DNA from: Bacteroidales bacterium
Lineage (GTDB): Bacteria; Bacteroidota; Bacteroidia; Bacteroidales; UBA932
Assembly (NCBI GenBank): GCA_017625535.1
Contig: JAGAKR010000019.1
Coordinates: 62,001 to 126,000 of the forward strand
Direction of reading: 5' to 3'
DNA: 64,000 nucleotides
Below the pieces are notes generated by a model. The model was not told the DNA's origin and ran no database searches. It saw only the letters and a list, made by a program, of their open reading frames with translations. The stretch's first letter is position 1. The number at the start of each line of letters is the position of its first letter. The translations under genes and the position numbers were made by a program. Shown piece by piece: positions 40,099 to 49,274 of this stretch.

Positions 40099-40539
40099 TT
40101 ATGCAAAAAGACGACGATAAATAAAAAGCAAATATTTTCTCAAGAACCTTAAGTTGACCCATAAAGAGGAAAACATCCGCCACTTGAAGGAAGTTACAGG
40201 GATAATTTTACCTGAAGGATGCTGTATCTGGGTTACTTTGCCTATAATGTCTTTTGAATGGCAGAATTCCCTGCTGGCATATACACCGTCACCCTGTATT
40301 ATATATTTTTCACCCTCAATTTTAATTACCCTATGGAGTACATGGCGTCCTTTGTAGAAAAAAAGAACAACGTCATTTTTTACAACAGGCTCATTTACAG
40401 GAGAAAGAAGAATAGAATCTTTATCGCCTGATAAGAAGGGGTACATGGAGTTGCCTTTTACTTTAAACCAGACACTCCGGCCCTGGGATATCTCGGATTC
40501 TACTTGTGCAAAGAATAAGTCATTAGGGAGAGATTTCAT
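40099..40539 (-). CDS. S24/S26 peptidase, SipW/S26B-like, in the peptide cassette
   Basis: This 146-residue peptidase has KGNSMYPFL (nucleophile Ser31) and VLHRVIKIEG, where His69 takes the place of the general-base Lys of bacterial signal peptidase I. GDGV follows. A Ser-His arrangement is typical of the S26B (SipW/eukaryotic) branch. A basic, hydrophobic C-terminus (SLWVNLRFLRKYLLFIYRR) may anchor it to the membrane. ATG at 40539 overlaps the upstream kinase stop as ATGA. It is the last gene of the minus-strand cassette and the likely leader or signal peptidase. Confidence 0.75.
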   Translation of the reverse strand: MKSLPNDLFFAQVESEISQGRSVWFKVKGNSMYPFLSGDKDSILLSPVNEPVVKNDVVLFFYKGRHVLHRVIKIEGEKYIIQGDGVYASREFCHSKDIIGKVTQIQHPSGKIIPVTSFKWRMFSSLWVNLRFLRKYLLFIYRRLFA

Positions 40540-41393
40540 AGCTGAGAGGAAAAAATTGTATTGCAGGAAAGTTGAGCAGCATCTGCATCCGGTAGGCATT
40601 CAAGCCACCAGCATGGTGCAGAACGGAGTATTTGGCCTAAAGAAGAGGAAATATGGGAGTATATCCTCTCATCATAGGCAAATTCTGGTGGGCAGGATGG
40701 ATGCAATGCGGCATAGCCTTTCAGCACAGGAAGCTTATGCATTTTATTGTATGGAGCCTGTGAAAGCCTTACACAACCGGCAAGGGGGTATCTCTCCTGC
40801 TTATAGCAAGGGGTCTTTCCGCTCCAAGGGCTGCCGTAAACCCAAACCGAACCATCAATTATACGTACAATAGGGCTGTCATCATTAAGCAGAAAAGAAC
40901 CGGATATATTCTCACGCCATAAACGGGTATGGGTACTTTTGCCTGTACCGCTTTCACCCAAAAACAGGACAGCCTTGCCATCATGTACAATACAGCTGCT
41001 GTGGATTGCCACAGTCCCCCTGCTGCATGTCATAAGCCCATAACCAACCCAAAGGGCAAAACGGAAAAGTCTCAAACTCAAATTCCCATTAAGGAATACC
41101 TCATTCCCCCCAAGAGAACACCACATATACAGCGGCTCCTCAGCCTCAGGCTTCTGAATAAGGTAAAAACCTTCCTCAGTAGAGCCAAACTCACCATGCA
41201 CGTCCTCATAATCAAAGGAATACTGTTCAACAAGTCCACAAGGAAGAGTATCAGACAAAACAAAACTGAAATCCGGATCTCCGGAGGTGTCCTCAAAATG
41301 GCTGAACCCGCCAATACGGGAAATTTCACCGCACAAAGTCTCACCCTGTACCTCAAAATAATGGTCGGCTACTCTATATCTCTTACTTGTCAT
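40536..41393 (-). CDS. HPr-kinase-like (HprK/PEPCK-fold) P-loop protein
   Basis: This 285-residue protein carries the P-loop GESGTGKST (residues 146-154), a preceding AIHSSCIV (His131), and LLNDDSPIV with the Asp pair 171-172, which is the HprK arrangement. The N-terminal part is unlike HprK domain 1. There is no HPr or PTS gene nearby. Related kinases in lasso-peptide clusters phosphorylate a Ser of the precursor, and a similar role is inferred. ATG at 41393 overlaps the ABC-transporter stop by 11 bp; a longer frame to 41450 lies inside that gene. Confidence 0.75.
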   Translation of the reverse strand: MTSKRYRVADHYFEVQGETLCGEISRIGGFSHFEDTSGDPDFSFVLSDTLPCGLVEQYSFDYEDVHGEFGSTEEGFYLIQKPEAEEPLYMWCSLGGNEVFLNGNLSLRLFRFALWVGYGLMTCSRGTVAIHSSCIVHDGKAVLFLGESGTGKSTHTRLWRENISGSFLLNDDSPIVRIIDGSVWVYGSPWSGKTPCYKQERYPLAGCVRLSQAPYNKMHKLPVLKGYAALHPSCPPEFAYDERIYSHISSSLGQILRSAPCWWLECLPDADAAQLSCNTIFSSQL

Positions 41394-43008
41394 CTTCTTC
41401 CAAATTAATAATTCTGCTGCAATAAGCCAATGAACTTTCCCTATGGGCAATAGAAAGGATTGTAAGTCCCGGACAGGATTCCCTCAAATCCATCAGCATC
41501 ATATTTATCTCCTTTTCAGTTGCATTATCCAAAGCAGAAGTAGCCTCGTCCAAAAGGAGGAGTGTCGCCCCCTTGTACAAAGCCCTTGCAATGCCAATCC
41601 TCTGCTTTTGTCCTCCCGACAATTTGCCTCCACCTTCGCCCAAAATGGTATCAAGGCCATTCTCAAGAGAATCGGCCCAATCCTTCAGGCAAACTTTTTC
41701 AAGAATTTGAAGAATTCTTTCCCTGTCGGGAAGATCATACCCAAGTGCAATATTCTCTGCTATTGACCCGTTGAAAATGAAAACCTCCTGAGGAACATAC
41801 CCAATCTGGGCAAGCCATGATTTTCTGGCAGCGGAAGTGAGGGGAACCCCATCTATCCTTATTTTCCCTTTTGAAGGGCTCAGGAAGCCGAGTAGCAAAT
41901 TGAACAAAGTGGTTTTACCAACTCCGCTGTAACCGCAGAAACCAACATACTCTCCTTTGGAAATTTTAAAATCCTTAAAATTTATAGGTTCTTCTGAATA
42001 GCTGAAAGAGAGTCCGCAAACCTCAATGGCATTATTGAATGAAACCGTCTCATCAGCAGCAGCTTTGGAAGAAACCGGCTCTGCCAGTCCCTCCTCTATA
42101 ACCTCCAACGAAGGGAGTGCATTCTGCAGCTGGGTAATTCCTCCAAGAATGCCCCTTAAAGCCGGTAGCAGCCTGAATGCAGAAACTGCAAAAATTCCAA
42201 CCAGCATACCGGCATTCTCACCTCCCAGGAGCACCATAATAGCAAGTCCTATGATAACTGCAAGCTCTGAAAGCAGACGCGGCAATATATACACCGTTTC
42301 CAGCTTTATTCTTGCATCATTCACTATATCAACCCCTTTAAGGAAAGAATCCTGCAACTTGGGAAACGCCCCGTTAATCTCAAGTTCCGTATAACCTCTG
42401 AAAGTATCTGTAACAAGCCTGGCCTGGGAACGTTTTGCCTCAAAATCTGCACGTCCGTACTCCTTCACCTTTTTCCTTATGAAAAAAAGATACAGCAACA
42501 TGAACGGTATAAAACAGATATACAGCACAACAACAGACCTCCAGTCATATATAAGCAATGCAACGGAAACCAGAACAATAAGCAGCCCCTCCCCTGCCAT
42601 ACGCAAAAGGGGCATAAGGATACGGTCGCTGAAAGTATAGCAGATGAAATTCACTGAATGTCCCAGATTGCTGTACCCTTTATCCCTTATAAAAAGCAGG
42701 CCGTTATTGTAATATCTCTCATAAAGGCTGGAACTCAGCCTCTTGTACAAAGCCAGCAGATAACGGCTCTGGTATCTGGTAAACAATGTTGAGAAAATCC
42801 CTTTGGTTGCAATAAGGGCAAAAGCCAGAAGAGAAAAATAAATTGCAGCACTCCTGTTCTCACCACCCTCAAGCAGATAATACAGAACCGGGAGCAAAGA
42901 GGCCAGCCCCACAAAATCAAGCAAGGAATTAAAGAAGACAGTACACACAACCTTCAACCCCTGCCTCTTCTCCTGCGGCTGCAACAAATTTATTATCCTT
43001 CTGAACAT
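41383..43008 (-). CDS. ABC exporter, fused permease-ATPase (McjD/PglK-like)
   Basis: The 541-residue half-transporter has about six membrane segments (residues ~20-300), Walker A GYSGVGKT (359-366), signature LSGGQ (463-467) and Walker B LLLLDE (483-488). It lacks an N-terminal C39 peptidase domain, which fits a separate peptidase gene in the operon. It probably exports a modified peptide or glycolipid across the inner membrane. ATG at 43008 shares one base with the upstream stop (TGATG); a GTG at 43011 is an alternative. Confidence 0.85.
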   Translation of the reverse strand: MFRRIINLLQPQEKRQGLKVVCTVFFNSLLDFVGLASLLPVLYYLLEGGENRSAAIYFSLLAFALIATKGIFSTLFTRYQSRYLLALYKRLSSSLYERYYNNGLLFIRDKGYSNLGHSVNFICYTFSDRILMPLLRMAGEGLLIVLVSVALLIYDWRSVVVLYICFIPFMLLYLFFIRKKVKEYGRADFEAKRSQARLVTDTFRGYTELEINGAFPKLQDSFLKGVDIVNDARIKLETVYILPRLLSELAVIIGLAIMVLLGGENAGMLVGIFAVSAFRLLPALRGILGGITQLQNALPSLEVIEEGLAEPVSSKAAADETVSFNNAIEVCGLSFSYSEEPINFKDFKISKGEYVGFCGYSGVGKTTLFNLLLGFLSPSKGKIRIDGVPLTSAARKSWLAQIGYVPQEVFIFNGSIAENIALGYDLPDRERILQILEKVCLKDWADSLENGLDTILGEGGGKLSGGQKQRIGIARALYKGATLLLLDEATSALDNATEKEINMMLMDLRESCPGLTILSIAHRESSLAYCSRIINLEEDDK

Positions 43009-44108
43009 CACTTCTCCCCCCTGTTTAAAATCATATCCGGGGCCTTTATATGTGCCACAACCGAAGAAAGGAACCTCCTTACAGGAGATGCGCCCAATAC
43101 ATCGTATGAAAGTTTTGCACTTCTCAACACCCTGCGGAATTTATAGAAAATTACTGCCAACGGATTGCTGTGGGGCACTACAGAATCAAATTTCGGGTAC
43201 AGCATCTCCTCCAGCATCTCATCCGCCAAGGCGGTATAATCCTGCGGTAAAAAGCTTATATCCTGCTCTGTCCCCAGGTACTTGTTTGCCAAATGGGTAA
43301 ATGCTGCCAAGGCACGGAGGAAATTGGTTTCCTTAACTTCGCAAGGAATAACAAGATTATTCTTCTTTAAAAGTGCTGCCCAATCATACAGGTGATGCAG
43401 GGCAATGCCGCTCCCATAATGCTGGAAGGCGTGGCAGCTTATAAACAGCATATTGAACTGCGGCGAAGGTACAAGAATCCTGTACTTGCCCTCATAAAAA
43501 GAAACCTCCACAGGGTTAAGGCACCTCCAGAGCACCTCATTCAAACTCCCCAGAAACTTTGGATAAGTCTTTACATTTAGAAAAAACTTGTGGTTCTCTA
43601 TTGGAATCCCCTTGAAATAAAAATTGCTGTGTTTATAAGAATGCGAATGGTCAACCTCAATCCCCTTCTCCCCCACAAGCCTGTCTGACAGGAGATTTGC
43701 TTCCCGATGGCCAATTGCCTTTTCATCTGCAGAGTAAGTATAGATGTCAATGTCGCCCCCTTCCCTATGGGCAGGGACATTATAATTGGCAGAAAAACCC
43801 ACACCCTTCATCTGCACCGCAACAATACCATTTTCCCTGTAAAACTGCTGCAGTTCCTGCGCAGCCTCACAATACCTCCGGTGCTTCTGCTCATACTTCT
43901 CTACCGAGATTCCCCACTGGAACTTCAGCCCTTTTGGAGGATGCAGACTCTGCTCCAACTGCAGCACCCCTTCCCACGCCAATGCCAGCACCCCCTGTCG
44001 GGATGCTGCATTAAAACACATCTTCCAGTCCTGTTCCTCAGCCCCTTCAAACAGCCCCACCTCCGGCTCCACACCATGCAGCGAACTCCTCAAAAGGGCA
44101 AAAAGCAT
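43008..44108 (-). CDS. NTP_transf_5-type nucleotidyltransferase
   Basis: This 366-residue protein matches the uncharacterised nucleotidyltransferase family seen in lasso-peptide and capsule-linked clusters. Residues 100-121 contain MKGVGF and REGGDIDIY, giving the Asp119-x-Asp121 metal pair and Lys101. ATG at 44108 is preceded by AGAGGAG. In-frame ATGs at 44132 and 44192 are possible but lie before that site. It is the first gene of the cassette. In related clusters such enzymes act on a phosphorylated Ser of the precursor, an inferred parallel here. Confidence 0.75.
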   Translation of the reverse strand: MLFALLRSSLHGVEPEVGLFEGAEEQDWKMCFNAASRQGVLALAWEGVLQLEQSLHPPKGLKFQWGISVEKYEQKHRRYCEAAQELQQFYRENGIVAVQMKGVGFSANYNVPAHREGGDIDIYTYSADEKAIGHREANLLSDRLVGEKGIEVDHSHSYKHSNFYFKGIPIENHKFFLNVKTYPKFLGSLNEVLWRCLNPVEVSFYEGKYRILVPSPQFNMLFISCHAFQHYGSGIALHHLYDWAALLKKNNLVIPCEVKETNFLRALAAFTHLANKYLGTEQDISFLPQDYTALADEMLEEMLYPKFDSVVPHSNPLAVIFYKFRRVLRSAKLSYDVLGASPVRRFLSSVVAHIKAPDMILNRGEK

Positions 44109-44217
44109 CTGTTCTCCTCTCTGTAAAATCATACACTTGAATATTGCTGGACAAAGATAAATAAATATTGCAATGAAAAATTTATAAAACAAAATTAAAA
44201 TTTTTGAGGTTCAGGGA

Positions 44218-44248
44218 TTTGTAAAAGAAAGAAACTTAATTATATTTG
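44218..44248 (+). promoter_or_regulatory. Promoter of peptide locus 1
   Basis: TTTG (44218) and TATATTTG (44241) are 19 bp apart, an excellent Bacteroidetes match. The following leader contains GGCTACATGTATA, which recurs at locus 2. Confidence 0.75.
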
Positions 44249-44324
44249 TAGCGTATTGGCTACATGTATACACTTCGTCTACTATTAAATCATAAATACT
44301 AACTAACAAACACACCTTAAAATT

Positions 44325-44453
44325 ATGGAACAGAAAAAATTGCTTTACGACTCTCCTCTTGTAGAGTACATTGAGGTTGAAGTTGAAAAAGGGTTTGCAA
44401 ACAGCAACGGTTCTGCCGGATCCGAAGATTATAATCAACAGGAATGGCAATAA
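44325..44453 (+). CDS. Small peptide 1 (42 residues), candidate precursor peptide
   Basis: An ATG at 44325 opens 42 codons in front of the fimbrillin-like gene. The central motif is SPLVEYIEVEVEKGFANS; a Gly/Ser/Asn/Gln-rich tail (NGSAGSEDYNQQEW) ends the peptide. Peptide 2 at 47381 shares Y-(D/E)-x-P-x-V-E-x-x-E-V-x-V-E-x-G-F-A-x-S. The promoter sits 76 bp upstream and the divergent cassette (nucleotidyltransferase, exporter, kinase, peptidase) begins just across it. It may be a leader-plus-core precursor, or a short regulatory leader peptide for the downstream gene. No known family is recognised. Confidence 0.65.
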   Translation: MEQKKLLYDSPLVEYIEVEVEKGFANSNGSAGSEDYNQQEWQ

Positions 44454-44483
44454 ATTTTTTCAAACATTCAAAACATTTATACT

Positions 44484-47099
44484 ATGAAAAAAATATTTGC
44501 AATTATATCTCTCTTCGCTCTGGTCCTTACCAGTTGTGAAAAAGAAGAGGCTATAGTTATTGGATCTGGATTGGATACAATAACTGCAACAATAGAGTCA
44601 ACTACTGATACAAAAGCCACATTACAGGATGGAACTAATAACAATGTTGTATTGTGGGAAGAAGATGACCCTATATCTGTATTTATAGAGCAAGAAAACA
44701 CCGTTTACAATGTAAAATACGAATTGAACGAGGGTGATGGGACTACTGAAGGAGTTTTCGTTAAAGCAGAACCTAATTTTGAAATCGCTGCTGATGCTAC
44801 AATTCTTGCAGCAGTATATCCGTATGATGAAGATGCTGTTTATGCTGATGGTTCAGTTTCCGGGCTCAGCACAACTGATAGTTATACATACTCTCAAACA
44901 GAGAAAGTTGGCCCAATGGCTGCAAAAGCCAATGGCAGCAACCTATCTTTCAAAAATGTAGGAGCATTGGTACAAATATCCACAAGTAATGTTCCGAACG
45001 GCTACAACAAGATAGAATTGTCATCAGCAACAAGCGGTCTACAGGGAGAGTATTCGCTTTCATTTGATGAAAATGGCATTCCTGTACCAACTTTGACAGG
45101 TACAGGTAAAACAATTACTTTTGAAGGCACCTCTGCAGACCAAACAGTATATTTCCCTGTATTTGCAGGAAGTTACTCTGATTTGACAGTAAAGGCTAAA
45201 AATGATGCCGGTTCAGAAGTAATCCTCATCTCTCCTAAAGCTCTTGAGGCTGTAAGGAATACAATCCACTGGACACAAAGAAGTGTTATAACCGAAACTA
45301 TCATTGCTGAATCAGGTACAATATCGCTAACTGAGAACAATGGTAAAGAACTCACATTAATAATTTATAAAGACGGTGGTAATCATGCTTGGGATATAAC
45401 CATTGAACCTGCAGATCAATATACAATTATTGACGGTATAGTTAATATAATGATTGACGGGCTTACTATAGATAACGACTTGAATATCAATCTTCCTAAT
45501 GCAACAGTTAACCTTACCGGAACATCAACTTATACAAATATTAACTCAACAACTGCATCAAACACATTGATTCTGGGTAAAGGTGTGACAGCACAGAAAG
45601 TAACGGTAAATCAAGGCAATGTCCAGGTTAATGAAGGGGCAACTGTTACACAGTTTGAGAATGACAGTACTGAAGAAATTGTGATAATTGATAACGGAGG
45701 AACTATTCCAGATGAAAATACAGATTTTACTAAACGTACATACGCAGAGCATGAATTGATTAAAGCCATTAATGATAACACTGTCAATACTCATACTCTT
45801 ACTGGCAATGTTACATTGTCTGATATTTTGACAATCAACAAGAACTTTGTACTGGATGGTAATGGTTACACTCTAACATCTACAATGAATGGTAGTAATG
45901 GTAGAGCAATAAATGTAGGTGAATCTGGTTGCGGAAACCTTAATGTTACCATAAAGAACCTCGAAATTGAGGCAAGTGGTCAAAGAGCTATTAATTTGAT
46001 TCAAGGAAGTCATAATGTTACAATAGAGAATGTTACTGCAACATCAACAAATTACACAGTTAACGTAGCAGCCTCTGCTCCAGGTTCAATAGTTACAATC
46101 AATAAATCAACACTGACGGGTAAAAACACAATCAATGTAGGAGCAGAAAATACCACTATGACTGTTTCTGAATCAACTCTTTCAACAATTGACGATAATG
46201 CCGGTGAAGGATATTCAACAATTACTGTAGGCTCATACAATGCTGGTAACTCAACTTTCCTTTCAGGATCTGAAGTCTCAGTACAGAATTGTAACTTCAA
46301 CATTGGTGGTACTCAGATAGACGAAACATACAACGTTTCATATGCTTCGAGTTTGAATGATGTAGAAATTATAAGTTCAAATCCGGCTCAACTTAGCATA
46401 GAAGACGTTAAAGCCATCTTACCCCAAGGTAATGATAATTACTATAGTGCTTCAACATTAGATGAACTAATTGAAGAAGCCAAAGAAGGAAATACAATAA
46501 AACTGGTTGATAATGTAACAATAAACGAACCTGTTGAAATTTCCACTGGTGAAACATTTACAATAGACCTCAATAATAAGACTTTAAAAACTGCAGAAAT
46601 ACTGGATGCAGATAGTTGGTCGGCTGCAATTATTGTTTTGAAAGGTGACGTAACAATTAAGGGCGGAACCATTGAAACTCAAGGAACTGCTGAACATAAA
46701 AAAATGGGGGCAATCTGGGTAAGAGGTAGTGAGTCCGCAACAGTTACCATAACTGATGGAACCTATAAAGGTAACAGTTGGAATACTACGGCTACATATA
46801 CCGATGATTGTATGGCCACTATTTATGTATCAAATGAAAATGGAAATGTAACCATAAATGGAGGTAATTTCTATTGCGTCCAACAGGAACAGACTACAGG
46901 CTATAACCATATTCTAAACTATTTAAACTCATTTGGCAGCAACCAGAAGATTTTTGTAAAAGGCGGAAAATTCTACAGAATGAATCCTGCCGTAGGAAAT
47001 GGAACTGAGCAGACATATCTGAATACAGGATATACATCGGCTGAAACAACAGAAAATGATATAAAAGTATTTACTGTCTCTGCTGCAGAAAATAATTAG
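44484..47099 (+). CDS. Fimbrillin-like lipoprotein with C-terminal beta-helix
   Basis: This 871-residue protein has a lipobox (FALVLTSCEKEE) with acidic residues right after the Cys, consistent with a surface-export signal. Residues ~25-265 resemble fimbrillin/Mfa-like domains (DTKATLQDG, FKNVGALVQIS, YFPVFAGSYSDLTV). The remainder is a series of VTIxNVTA-type rungs (NLNVTIKNLEIEASGQRAIN, STITVGSYNAGNSTF, SATVTITDGTYKGNSW), a right-handed beta-helix pattern. It is probably a surface adhesin. It starts 30 bp after peptide 1 and is followed by the terminator at 47146. Confidence 0.75.
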   Translation: MKKIFAIISLFALVLTSCEKEEAIVIGSGLDTITATIESTTDTKATLQDGTNNNVVLWEEDDPISVFIEQENTVYNVKYELNEGDGTTEGVFVKAEPNFEIAADATILAAVYPYDEDAVYADGSVSGLSTTDSYTYSQTEKVGPMAAKANGSNLSFKNVGALVQISTSNVPNGYNKIELSSATSGLQGEYSLSFDENGIPVPTLTGTGKTITFEGTSADQTVYFPVFAGSYSDLTVKAKNDAGSEVILISPKALEAVRNTIHWTQRSVITETIIAESGTISLTENNGKELTLIIYKDGGNHAWDITIEPADQYTIIDGIVNIMIDGLTIDNDLNINLPNATVNLTGTSTYTNINSTTASNTLILGKGVTAQKVTVNQGNVQVNEGATVTQFENDSTEEIVIIDNGGTIPDENTDFTKRTYAEHELIKAINDNTVNTHTLTGNVTLSDILTINKNFVLDGNGYTLTSTMNGSNGRAINVGESGCGNLNVTIKNLEIEASGQRAINLIQGSHNVTIENVTATSTNYTVNVAASAPGSIVTINKSTLTGKNTINVGAENTTMTVSESTLSTIDDNAGEGYSTITVGSYNAGNSTFLSGSEVSVQNCNFNIGGTQIDETYNVSYASSLNDVEIISSNPAQLSIEDVKAILPQGNDNYYSASTLDELIEEAKEGNTIKLVDNVTINEPVEISTGETFTIDLNNKTLKTAEILDADSWSAAIIVLKGDVTIKGGTIETQGTAEHKKMGAIWVRGSESATVTITDGTYKGNSWNTTATYTDDCMATIYVSNENGNVTINGGNFYCVQQEQTTGYNHILNYLNSFGSNQKIFVKGGKFYRMNPAVGNGTEQTYLNTGYTSAETTENDIKVFTVSAAENN

Positions 47100-47145
47100 T
47101 CTGAATATTATATGTAAACTTGAGAATTACATATTGAACTGAATG

Positions 47146-47186
47146 AGCCGCCATTATCAGGTTTAATCCGGTAATGGCGGCTTTTT
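47146..47186 (+). terminator. Terminator of peptide locus 1
   Basis: AGCCGCCATTA pairs with TAATGGCGGCT, with inner GG/CC, followed by TTTTTAC. The hairpin is almost identical to the one after peptide 2. Confidence 0.85.
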
Positions 47187-47285
47187 ACATAAGTATTCTT
47201 TTCAATATATAGGTCTGCGTAGTCCAATAATTCGTGCGGGTCCTGGACCAGACAGAAATCTGTCGGGATGGAAATCTTTCAATTG

Positions 47286-47315
47286 TTTGAATTATAAGAA
47301 TATTTGCTACATTTG
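47286..47315 (+). promoter_or_regulatory. Promoter of peptide locus 2
   Basis: TTTG (47286) and TACATTTG (47308) are 18 bp apart. The leader that follows (TAACGCCGTATGGTACATGT) matches that of locus 1. The remainder of 47187-47285 is unassigned apart from a TGTCGGGA octamer at 47261. Confidence 0.75.
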
Positions 47316-47380
47316 TAACGCCGTATGGTACATGTATATTTTTATTCAACAAAGGTGTGGAATTCTAAAACTTTTTGATT

Positions 47381-47461
47381 ATGGAAAACACTATGAATTA
47401 TGAGGCTCCTCAGGTTGAGTTGCTTGAGGTTGCTGTTGAGCAGGGATTTGCTGCTTCATAA
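47381..47461 (+). CDS. Small peptide 2 (26 residues), paralogue of peptide 1
   Basis: ATG at 47381 opens 26 codons ending in a C-terminal Ser: the core is APQVELLEVAVEQGFAAS. It aligns with peptide 1 without gaps over this stretch but stops directly after the GFAxS motif, lacking the Gly/Ser-rich tail. It has its own promoter and matching leader, and is followed at 64 bp by the same hairpin as locus 1, with no surface-protein gene between. It could be a free-standing precursor or a decayed duplicate. Confidence 0.6.
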   Translation: MENTMNYEAPQVELLEVAVEQGFAAS

Positions 47462-47524
47462 GGGCTCAACTCAATTAAAGGATTATTATCGTTGTGAAAT
47501 AATAATGAATCGTCTAAAAAAATG

Positions 47525-47560
47525 GCCGCCATTATCAGGGATTTGCCCGGTAATGGCGGC
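47525..47560. terminator. Hairpin of peptide locus 2
   Basis: GCCGCCATTA pairs with TAATGGCGGC with the same inner bases as at 47146. No T-run follows on the plus strand. A run of seven A precedes it, so on the minus strand it would be a better terminator. Confidence 0.65.
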
Positions 47561-47604
47561 TGTTGGTTATAATCAAATGCTAAAATATGTTGTTCATCCT
47601 TTGT

Positions 47605-47657
47605 AATATCTGCTAAAAAATGTAAATTTACAACTGAAATATCTGCTGAATAATGTA
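47605..47657. promoter_or_regulatory. Direct repeats and palindrome upstream of the ATPase gene
   Basis: AATATCTGCTAAAAAATGTAA and AATATCTGCTGAATAATGTAA recur about 32 bp apart (two close copies of ~20 bp), with the perfect palindrome TGTAAATTTACA at 47621-47632 between. This looks like an operator next to the start at 47667, but no regulator is assigned. Confidence 0.45.
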
Positions 47658-47666
47658 ATAATATAT

Positions 47667-48953
47667 ATGTATAGAATTGTATTTCAAAGGCTTATTGAAT
47701 GGAAAAACAACACAGGCAGAAAGCCTTTAATCCTTAATGGTGCCAGACAGGTTGGCAAAACATGGCTGTTAAAAGAATTAGGGGATAAGCACTATGATAA
47801 AGTTGCATATCTGGTCTGCCGTAAGAACCAGACTTTAAAGGATGTGTTTTCTCTAGATTTTAATACAGACAGAATACTCAGAGCTCTTAGAGCGTTGTCG
47901 GGGGTTGACATTACTCCTGGGGATACTCTTATTGTTCTTGATGAGGTACAAGATATTCCGGAAGCCATAGAATCATTGAAGTATTTCAGCGAGGAAGCTC
48001 CAGAGTACCATATTGCAGTAGCAGGGTCGCTGTTGGGAATATCTCTGCATAAGGATGTATCATATCCGGTAGGCAAAGTTGATGAGATTAATGTCTACCC
48101 TCTGAACTTTGCTGAATTCCTTTTGGCCAAAGGAGAGACAGAAGCATACAATCTTCTAAAAAACAAAGATTTCAGCACTATAAATCTGATACATGAAAAG
48201 TACACAGACTTGCTCAGACAATATTATTATGTTGGCGGAATGCCAGAGGCTGTGAAGGTTTTTATAGAGACCGACGGTCTAAAGGCTGTGCGTAAAGTAC
48301 AAAAGTCTATTTTAAATGGATATGAGAAAGACTTCTCAAAACACGCTCCTAAAGAACAGGTTGCGAGAATCAGACTTGTGTGGCAGACACTCCCGTCCCA
48401 GTTATTTAAAGAGAATAAAAAATTCATTTACGGGTCAATGAAGCATGGCGCACGTGCAAAAGACTTTGAGATTGCTATCCAGTGGCTTGCAGATGCCGGA
48501 CTTGTTTATAAAGTTCCTCTATGTAAGGAGGTAAAACTTCCTCTGAAAGTATACGAAGACACTACAGCATTCAAGTTATTCACCCTGGATCTTGGATTAC
48601 TGGGGGCTATGGTTGGCACTGAAGCAGGACAAGTACTTATAAAGAACGACATATTCACAGAATATAAAGGGGGTATGACTGAACAGTTTGTACTTGAAGA
48701 AATGAAGAGTAACGGCGAAGAAAATATCTTCTACTACAAAGCTGAAGATGGGACTAGACTGGAGATTGACTTTATGATACAGAGAGAGGGCAAACTTTTA
48801 CCAATTGAAGTAAAAGCAGAAGGGAATGTGAGAGCAAACTCACTTAGTAATCTTCTTAAGCAAACGCCGGAGCTCCATGCAATTAGATATTCAATGAAAC
48901 CGTATATTGAACAGGAACAAATGACATGTTACCCGCTATATGCTATACAATAA
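47667..48953 (+). CDS. AAA_14/DUF4143 ATP-binding protein
   Basis: This 428-residue protein of the widespread AAA_14 + DUF4143 family has the P-loop LNGARQVGKTWLLKELG (residues ~23-40) and a Walker B-like LIVLDEVQDIPEAIESLKYF. A C-terminal nuclease-like region carries LEIDFMIQREGKLLPIEVKAEG (ExK motif). The cellular role of the family is not established. It sits alone between the second peptide locus and the PqqD-like gene and may be unrelated cargo. Confidence 0.85.
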   Translation: MYRIVFQRLIEWKNNTGRKPLILNGARQVGKTWLLKELGDKHYDKVAYLVCRKNQTLKDVFSLDFNTDRILRALRALSGVDITPGDTLIVLDEVQDIPEAIESLKYFSEEAPEYHIAVAGSLLGISLHKDVSYPVGKVDEINVYPLNFAEFLLAKGETEAYNLLKNKDFSTINLIHEKYTDLLRQYYYVGGMPEAVKVFIETDGLKAVRKVQKSILNGYEKDFSKHAPKEQVARIRLVWQTLPSQLFKENKKFIYGSMKHGARAKDFEIAIQWLADAGLVYKVPLCKEVKLPLKVYEDTTAFKLFTLDLGLLGAMVGTEAGQVLIKNDIFTEYKGGMTEQFVLEEMKSNGEENIFYYKAEDGTRLEIDFMIQREGKLLPIEVKAEGNVRANSLSNLLKQTPELHAIRYSMKPYIEQEQMTCYPLYAIQ

Positions 48954-48974
48954 TGAAAATTCGGCAGGAATAAG

Positions 48975-48982
48975 TAACTTTG
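48975..48982 (+). promoter_or_regulatory. -7 box (TAACTTTG) for the PqqD-like gene
   Basis: TAACTTTG lies 22 bp upstream of the ATG at 49005 and fits TAnnTTTG. No clear -33 element is seen. Confidence 0.4.
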
Positions 48983-49004
48983 TCATAAACTAAAGCATGA
49001 TGTT

Positions 49005-49274
49005 ATGAAATTGAGCAACAATTATATTTTAAGGGAGATAGCCGGTGAAAAGATTGTGGTTAAGCAGGGGACACACGGCGTGGATATGACAAAAATCATC
49101 TCTTTCAATGAGAGTGCGGCGGCACTTTGGGAGAATTTTACAAATAAGGATTTTACTGCAGAGGATGCAGCGCAGTTCCTTGTTTCCCGATATGGAATTT
49201 CTGCAGAGACTGCAACCAAAGATGCGGGGTTGTGGATTTGGAAACTGAAGGATTGTGGTGCGATTATTGAGTAA
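49005..49274 (+). CDS. PqqD-family protein (RiPP recognition element fold)
   Basis: This 89-residue protein has the PqqD pattern: a short beta-sheet (YILREIAGEKIVVKQG), ISFNESAAALWENFTNK, then helices with FLVSRYGISAETATKDAGLWIWKLKDCGAI. PqqD-fold domains bind leader peptides of ribosomally made, modified peptides. Together with the nearby kinase, nucleotidyltransferase, exporter and peptidase this suggests it recognises the small peptides at 44325 and 47381. It is 4.8 kb from the cassette, so the link is an inference. Confidence 0.75.
   Translation: MKLSNNYILREIAGEKIVVKQGTHGVDMTKIISFNESAAALWENFTNKDFTAEDAAQFLVSRYGISAETATKDAGLWIWKLKDCGAIIE

Follow-up and report, generated by a model that had tools for sequence, protein, structure and literature searches.

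The closest described counterpart of the genes considered here is the pathway of the Linear Polyphosphorylated Peptides (LPPs), which was published in May 2026, termed restricted to Bacillota, and left without an assigned function (PMC13381572). As reported there, the gene set comprises a discrete recognition element (RRE) for ribosomally synthesized and post-translationally modified peptides (RiPPs), an HprK-like kinase, a leader peptidase resembling signal peptidase I (SpI), an MsbA-like exporter, and a nucleoside triphosphate (NTP) transferase. The kinase places several phosphates on Ser3 of a core that begins A-Q-S, with forms carrying up to four being seen, and phosphorylation is abolished in a Ser3-to-Thr variant. 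Two residues of the RRE protein LppB, N33 and D70, fix the Pro kink and the Tyr of the leader; the peptidase cuts past Thr-1 and, in vitro, needs the RRE to do so; and deletion of lppN brought no change in a heterologous host (PMC13381572). A cassette of comparable make-up is found at positions 40,099 to 49,274 of a 64,000-nucleotide stretch, hereafter the window, from a Bacteroidales genome of 2.18 Mb that is 88.6% complete. Very probably, it encodes an LPP-type pathway akin to those of RiPPs, whose enzymes would phosphorylate, trim, and export short gene-encoded peptides in gut Bacteroidales.

Four genes on the minus strand overlap one another. They encode a predicted leader peptidase of the S26B type (archaeal-type signal-peptidase-like, LppS-like; 40099..40539 from the likely start at 40539, open reading frame (ORF) 40099-40599), a predicted peptide kinase (HprK-like, LppK-like; 40536..41393, likely start 41393, ORF 40536-41450), an exporter of the MsbA/PglK type from the ATP-binding cassette (ABC) family (LppD-like; 41383..43008, likely start 43008, ORF 41383-43011), and a putative nucleotidyl or glycosyl transferase of the NTP_transf_5 family (LppN-like; 43008..44192, likely start 44132). 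At the likely starts, kinase and peptidase genes meet in ATGA, exporter and kinase genes share 11 bp, and transferase and exporter genes share 1 bp within TGATG. The plus strand carries two short peptide genes, P1 (44325..44453), with the leader YDSPLVEYIEVEVEKGFANS and an acidic core ending near a Trp, and P2 (47381..47461), a second precursor-like peptide whose stop codon directly follows GFAAS, together with a gene for a discrete PqqD-fold RRE (LppB-like; 49005..49274), the presumed binder of the YxxP leader. These genes, their positions and the three junctions had been given in a preliminary description of this DNA and were found as stated. A further plus-strand gene between P1 and P2 was missing from that description, namely a lipoprotein of 871 aa (44484..47099) that starts 31 nt past P1 and has a lipobox Cys18 and a fimbrillin-like N-terminal motif; it belongs to the unit. 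The genome contains a single PqqD match and a single PF14907 (NTP_transf_5) match, both inside the cassette.

Compared with the lpp cluster of Paenibacillus alginolyticus (PMC13381572), the cassette has the same five-protein set, MsbA-like exporter and NTP transferase included, and neither set has a lasso cyclase or B2 protease. Both have a YxxPxV leader with a conserved Ser shortly past the RRE-binding segment, and the Asn and Asp of the RRE as well as the Ser/His/Asp triad of the SpI-like peptidase are retained in the Bacteroidales proteins. There are also differences. The Bacteroidales system belongs to another phylum, its leader has one more residue between Tyr and Ser, and its peptides have short tails, with a median of 13 aa past the Ser. 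Many precursors are scattered through a Bacteroidales genome, whereas an LPP cluster is reported to hold one to three, and they are paired with a surface lipoprotein, while the NTP transferase is often missing. What is new relative to the LPPs is thus the genome-wide scatter of precursors, mostly just upstream of a lipoprotein gene. The main text of the LPP report contains no word beginning with Bacteroid, and no description of such a pathway in Bacteroidota was found among open-licence PMC papers (subscription papers and preprints may differ). We are confident that this is a real and new LPP-like variant in Bacteroidota, for which the chemistry, cleavage site and role proposed below are read from sequence.

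The enzymes match their families to differing degrees. The transferase (PF14907, E 3.5e-37), the PqqD protein (PF05402, E 2.3e-9), the peptidase (PF00717, E 6e-6), and the exporter (ABC_tran, E 3e-32) all score above the family cut-offs. Below their cut-offs are the best NCBIfam matches of the exporter, PglK and MsbA, and, for the curated cut-off, the match of the peptidase to archaeal-type signal peptidase I (TIGR02228, E 7e-8). The kinase matches HprK_rel_A (TIGR04352, E 1.1e-3) and ScmC (TIGR04249, E 1.9e-4), both below curated cut-offs, and TIGR04352 matches 21 of 32 kinase homologues at E<=0.01 (best 1.3e-5). Residues H150, K171, D190, and D191 are invariant in all 32 and form the His-Lys-Asp-Asp motif described for lasso kinases (PMC9266682), so that the protein can be called HprK-like by this motif together with sub-cut-off family matches. 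The KG and GDxD residues of the transferase are invariant in 14 homologues, and the profile of this protein gave one chance match in the PDB (E 1). In the peptidase alignment of 99 rows, the catalytic Ser and His are each kept in 96/96 and the Asp in 94/96, rows gapped at the position not being counted; a cruder pattern count recovers the Ser motif in 93/93. The RRE retains its Asn (N35) in 60/60 and its Asp (D73) in 59/60 sequences, positions that correspond to N33 and D70 of LppB by spacing and by alignment with the lasso RRE TfuB1 (6jx3_B), which the PqqD family profile matches at E 1.9e-6.

Precursors were collected from 121 loci, some of them redundant, made up of 40 regions round PF14907 genes, 80 named kinase loci, and the window, all labelled by means of profiles that started from the proteins of the window. 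The 80 kinase loci are the best 80 of at least 544 relatives among at least 595 candidate stretches and were selected via the kinase itself. Two loci (L048 and L135) have the same peptide and neighbours and two others (L081 and L086) share one peptide; since redundant loci were kept, locus counts are slightly inflated, while peptide duplicates were removed by sequence from the Tyr onward. A profile search of short ORFs gave 28 peptides at E<0.01. P1 and P2 score E 2.5e-12 and 2.4e-14 with the peptide hidden Markov model and E 3.1e-11 and 3.7e-12 in the genome search, both peptides having served as seeds in each case. The YxxP motif for RRE binding is present in the short peptides. The consensus of 24 aligned leaders is YxxPx[V/I/M]E..E....ExGFAxS, in which the Y, P, E, and G do not vary and the Ser is found in 23/24; one leader with a gap sign was left out of the leader profile. 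Among 67 distinct peptides, counted after dropping one with a masked stretch (L081), 62 fit the residue pattern (the other five were left out of this count) and have, four residues past the G, a Ser in 58, a Thr in three, and an Asp in one, never an Ala or Gly. The conservation of Y, P, and Ser is partly by construction, since the search profile already held these residues, but this does not explain why Ala and Gly never occupy the Ser position. The tail beyond the Ser has a median of 13 residues, contains much Gly, Glu, and Asp, with a net charge of -3.3 on average, and has a Trp within the last four residues in 31/49 peptides.

As the LPP core starts with A-Q-S and an A-x-S follows the GF here, the alignment makes the conserved Ser of GFAxS the most likely phosphosite and GF|AxS the most likely cut. 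A reading of GFAxS as the -3/-1 site of a signal peptidase, with the cut past the Ser, was dropped, the Ser position being S, T, or D in 62/62 peptides and never A or G, and the LPP alignment equating this Ser with the third residue of the core, the one that is phosphorylated. A second leader class was also recognized. A first regular-expression hunt for other leader types was discarded (three hits against one in the reversed control), whereas a broader pattern gave 59 hits against seven, 44 of the 59 being GFA-type, and together with the kinase regions of a second subtype led to a GVICxS class, for which a profile was built from six seeds.

Genome-wide searches link these leaders to the kinase. 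In a panel of 118 genomes, the kinase profile hits 56 at E<=0.001, 44 of them with at least 200 bits; these 44 fall into subtype 1, which is that of the window (12 genomes scoring 339 bits or more), and subtype 2 (32 genomes scoring 200-287 bits), and the other 74 genomes include 12 with weaker kinase hits. PF14907 is present in 53 of the 118, the genome of the window included. At E<=0.01, GFAxS leaders are found in 20/118 genomes (up to 11 hits in one) and GVICxS leaders in 23/118 (up to 17 hits in one, many of them weak), scattered through the genome. At E<=1e-3, GFAxS leaders occur in 11/12 subtype-1, 5/32 subtype-2, and 2/74 other genomes, and GVICxS leaders in 0/12, 17/32, and 1/74, respectively; leader class thus largely follows kinase subtype. 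Taking both classes at this threshold, a leader is present in 31 of the 44 genomes whose kinase reaches 200 bits, compared with 3/74 others (p 7e-15), or in 22/35 compared with 3/74 once seed genomes are removed (p 3.5e-11), although seeds from the named kinase loci may still be related to genomes of the panel and the relatedness of the genomes makes these p-values overstate independence. Across a panel of 393 genomes drawn from the order, a GFAxS leader was found in 7/30 genomes whose kinase scores 100 bits or more and in 3/363 others (p 8e-7). The preliminary description had proposed that recurrence of the gene set without such peptides or PqqD would speak against it. For the kinase subtype of the window the peptides are present almost throughout; for the second subtype, 20/32 genomes have one of the two leader classes and 12/32 have none at E<=1e-3.

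The gene set recurs in several layouts. A kinase homologue is present in 98/121 loci, and of those 98, 93 have the S26 peptidase, 71 the exporter, and 59 the PqqD protein, which is found in 29/33 loci having kinase, NTP_transf_5, and exporter genes. The first layout, seen at six loci (L074, L076, L078, L090, L095, and L150), has the gene order peptide, lipoprotein, PqqD, NTP_transf_5, exporter, kinase, S26. The second comprises kinase, S26, PqqD, and exporter without NTP_transf_5 and accounts for 15/18 regions with a second-subtype kinase; of the other three, one is without a labelled S26, one without PqqD and exporter, and one has NTP_transf_5, which is therefore unlabelled in 17/18. Conversely, among 23 NTP_transf_5 loci without the kinase, peptides and S26 are absent throughout and PqqD is present at one, and NTP_transf_5 was dropped as a marker of the pathway. 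This enzyme is optional in the pathway, which corrects the earlier picture. In the third layout, from Alistipes and other Rikenellaceae, exporter, kinase, and S26 stand alone. A PqqD of the same family was found elsewhere in the genome for all 15 such loci, which had been chosen because no PqqD lies near the kinase (E 2e-27 to 4e-39, two matches having an in-frame stop). A merged leader profile, run on these 15 kinase genomes only and without kinase-free controls, matches 15/15 at E<=0.01, with a best E per genome of 1.7e-8 to 0.0037.

Most precursor genes are paired with a lipoprotein gene. The next same-strand ORF after 66 distinct GFAxS peptides encodes a lipoprotein, as called by a simple lipobox rule, in 50 cases and something else in 12, with none within 500 nt in four; among 1634 other ORFs of the same loci, a lipoprotein comes next for 114. 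Inspection by eye of the 12 other neighbours showed four lipoproteins missed by the rule, the kinase itself in three cases, and five other genes, including the ATPase after P2. The next ORF is a lipoprotein at 22/28 loci from the GVICxS search (28 of 30 loci gave a peptide; that of L243 equals that of L264, and L261 is of the GFAxS class) and at 21/30 loci from third-layout genomes, a set in which L308 without a credible peptide, L310 with a truncated one, and L289, equal to L302, were all kept. The gap between peptide and lipoprotein gene is -94 to 84 nt in 48/50 pairs, measured from longest-ORF starts. The 50 partners are 154-1274 aa long, with Cys18 invariant and W58 nearly so, and 34 of them, compared with 9/85 other lipoproteins, have the motif T[RK]...W..D.I in the N-terminal region. 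Pfam matches at E<=0.001 are few among them (Mfa_like_1, fimbrillin-like, six; BspA-type LRR_5, six; DUF4465, three; M48 peptidase, two; FISUMP, two), so that for most the fimbrillin-like label rests on the short motif; the 871-aa partner in the window has no Pfam match at 0.001.

From these sequences we infer the following course of events. The PqqD-fold protein would grip the YxxP leader and present the peptide to the HprK-like kinase, which would (poly)phosphorylate the conserved Ser of GFAxS. Where present, NTP_transf_5 might extend this phosphate with another group. The S26B peptidase would then cut off the leader next to the Ser, most likely at GF|AxS, the ABC exporter would move out a short acidic peptide often ending near a Trp, and the mature peptide would act together with the surface lipoprotein encoded directly downstream. 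The reading of the cassette in the preliminary description, as a pathway for peptide phosphorylation and export, is supported by the gene content, by the catalytic residues, by co-occurrence, and by the experimentally studied counterpart in Bacillota; nucleotidylation by NTP_transf_5 would be a putative further step. A wider proposal, more tentative and in our estimate somewhat short of an even chance, is that a single set of enzymes acts on many scattered precursors, modifying and exporting them, each phosphorylated peptide serving as a ligand, cap, or prosthetic piece of a fimbrillin-like lipoprotein and so decorating a surface repertoire. On the same tentative footing, the peptides would perhaps be further nucleotidylated or glycosylated, and the system would be a widespread, dedicated phosphopeptide system in Bacteroidales. 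For a class of peptides so far without an assigned function, the partner lipoprotein gives a first concrete functional handle, at the cell surface. The numerous natural precursors, and the correspondence of two leader classes with enzyme subtypes, also provide material on how an RRE chooses its peptides. Being encoded by short ORFs, the peptides can easily escape gene finders.

Several points weigh against this pathway, besides the relatedness of the genomes, the partly built-in conservation of the leaders, and kinase family matches that all fall below curated cut-offs. The LPP motif YxxPxVLxHQxIxFETxxS is only partly present: YxxPx[V/I/M] and the Ser are there and HQxIxFET is absent, so membership of the LPP family is not claimed and the system is filed as an LPP-like variant. 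The three Thr and one Asp among the 62 peptides speak against a strict Ser rule, the Ser-to-Thr change being reported to abolish LPP phosphorylation (PMC13381572). A comparison of the kinase profile with the PDB gave weak P-loop and PEPCK matches, none of the 60 matches listed, out of 71, being an HPr kinase, and the cruder pattern count for the peptidase finds its His as HR in 65/93, a Lys in two, and nothing in 26. The lack of effect of the lppN deletion makes the NTP_transf_5 step a guess. Peptides lie inside the retrieved flank at only 25/98 kinase loci, and 13/44 genomes with a strong kinase hit have no peptide at E<=1e-3. Conversely, two genomes (G006 and G069) have peptides without a kinase hit and a third (G107) has a kinase of just 62.7 bits. 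The GFAxS class is also rare across the order, being found in 10/393 genomes.

The partner genes also bear on what the peptides are for. They could be antimicrobial or signalling products, bacteriocin-like, with the adjoining lipoprotein as immunity protein or receptor, as variable cores behind a constant leader, usually with one partner gene each, would suggest; the LPP authors likewise note gain and loss patterns typical of biological conflict (PMC13381572). Core similarity indeed correlates with partner similarity (Mantel p 0.0005), but so does leader similarity (p 0.001; Spearman 0.287, compared with 0.136 for the core), so that shared descent is enough to explain the correlation. The partners are, moreover, mostly large and several are adhesin-like, unlike small immunity proteins, and we regard such a role as unlikely, though worth keeping in view. 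The tight spacing upstream of the lipoprotein genes could instead mean that the short ORFs serve to regulate these genes, as leader ORFs, and that the enzyme cluster acts on a glycan or lipid. Amino-acid conservation sits, however, in the leader with the RRE-binding Y and P, peptide presence tracks the kinase, leader class tracks kinase subtype, and a gene set of like composition is reported to modify such a peptide in Bacillota (PMC13381572), which together make a regulatory origin very improbable.

The preliminary description had drawn a parallel with the lasso-peptide clusters of paeninodin and pseudomycoidin, in the latter of which PsmN gave hexosylation (PMC9266682). The shared genes are there: an HprK-like kinase with His-Lys-Asp-Asp, an NTP_transf_5 homologue, a PqqD RRE, and an exporter; the closest system, nevertheless, is that of the LPPs and not a lasso cluster. 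A paeninodin-type cluster with a lost or hidden cyclase is hardly credible and was rejected. Where paeninodin leaders have the Trp of a WxxP motif, a Tyr is found in 24/24 aligned Bacteroidales leaders. The transglutaminase-like B2 protease (PF13471) has no match at E<=0.001 in the genome of the window, as far as that assembly is complete, and no cyclase family matches any of nine scanned proteins, no genome-wide search for a macrolactam cyclase having been made. The suggestion that an S26B enzyme takes the place of the lasso protease agrees with this absence of PF13471 and with the intact peptidase triad.

Relatives of the LPP-like pathway also occur outside Bacteroidota. The Butyrivibrio fibrisolvens plasmid pNP243 (NZ_CP146964) encodes relatives of the kinase (E 4e-39, there an HprK-like hypothetical protein), PqqD (E 1.6e-19), the S26 peptidase (E 1.7e-22, there an S24/S26 peptidase), and NTP_transf_5 (E 1.3e-40), along with ABC genes, and these surround a 57-aa YxxP peptide annotated as hypothetical (L272 7612-7785). 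This Cys-rich peptide lies between the HprK-like gene and the PqqD/S26 genes. It is a candidate related RiPP in Clostridia, which differs from the Bacteroidales system in its host, a member of Bacillota, in its Cys-rich precursor with an EGVYA segment, and in the stretch shown, where no lipoprotein is annotated. These relatives fit a view of one pathway family across Bacteroidota and Bacillota. Three kinase relatives in all were seen in plasmid records.

Some observations concern the arrangement of individual loci. At L045, L060, and the window, the cluster stands beside the same V-ATPase-like gene run and near a NamZ gene, as judged by ORF size and order. Between PqqD and NTP_transf_5, L045 has only a short gap and the other two have differing peptide-lipoprotein stretches, so that peptide-lipoprotein cassettes appear to insert at this point. 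In yet another layout (L091, L092, L105, and L114), PqqD, kinase, and S26 genes precede a 241-aa ORF and then one of 715-724 aa; at L091 these two encode a family-2 glycosyltransferase and a DPP IV-like peptidase.

Finally, P1 and P2 share a promoter-proximal element (44241..44270 and 47308..47338, both on the plus strand), in P1 a TAnnTTTG plus the shared part; the local alignment scores 29, the best of 300 mononucleotide shuffles reaching 28. The element ends in TACATGTATA, of which the plus strand of the window has just these two copies. As a general mark of the peptides it was rejected, TACATGTATA being found at 3/67. TAnnTTTG cores occur within 260 nt upstream of 29/67 peptides and in 1237/10956 consecutive 260-nt tiles of all retrieved loci, a background that includes coding DNA and is therefore not matched in composition. 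P2 is the sole case without a core among the 67 peptides and may be a leader-only remnant or the source of a tiny product ending in Ser; two loci among the third-layout peptides have a two-residue tail. The gene next to P2 encodes no lipoprotein but a DUF4143/AAA_14 ATPase (47667-48953). Two near-identical strong hairpins (47147-47181 and 47525-47560; folding z-scores about -5.8 each) flank P2 and resemble the terminators of a small independent unit.

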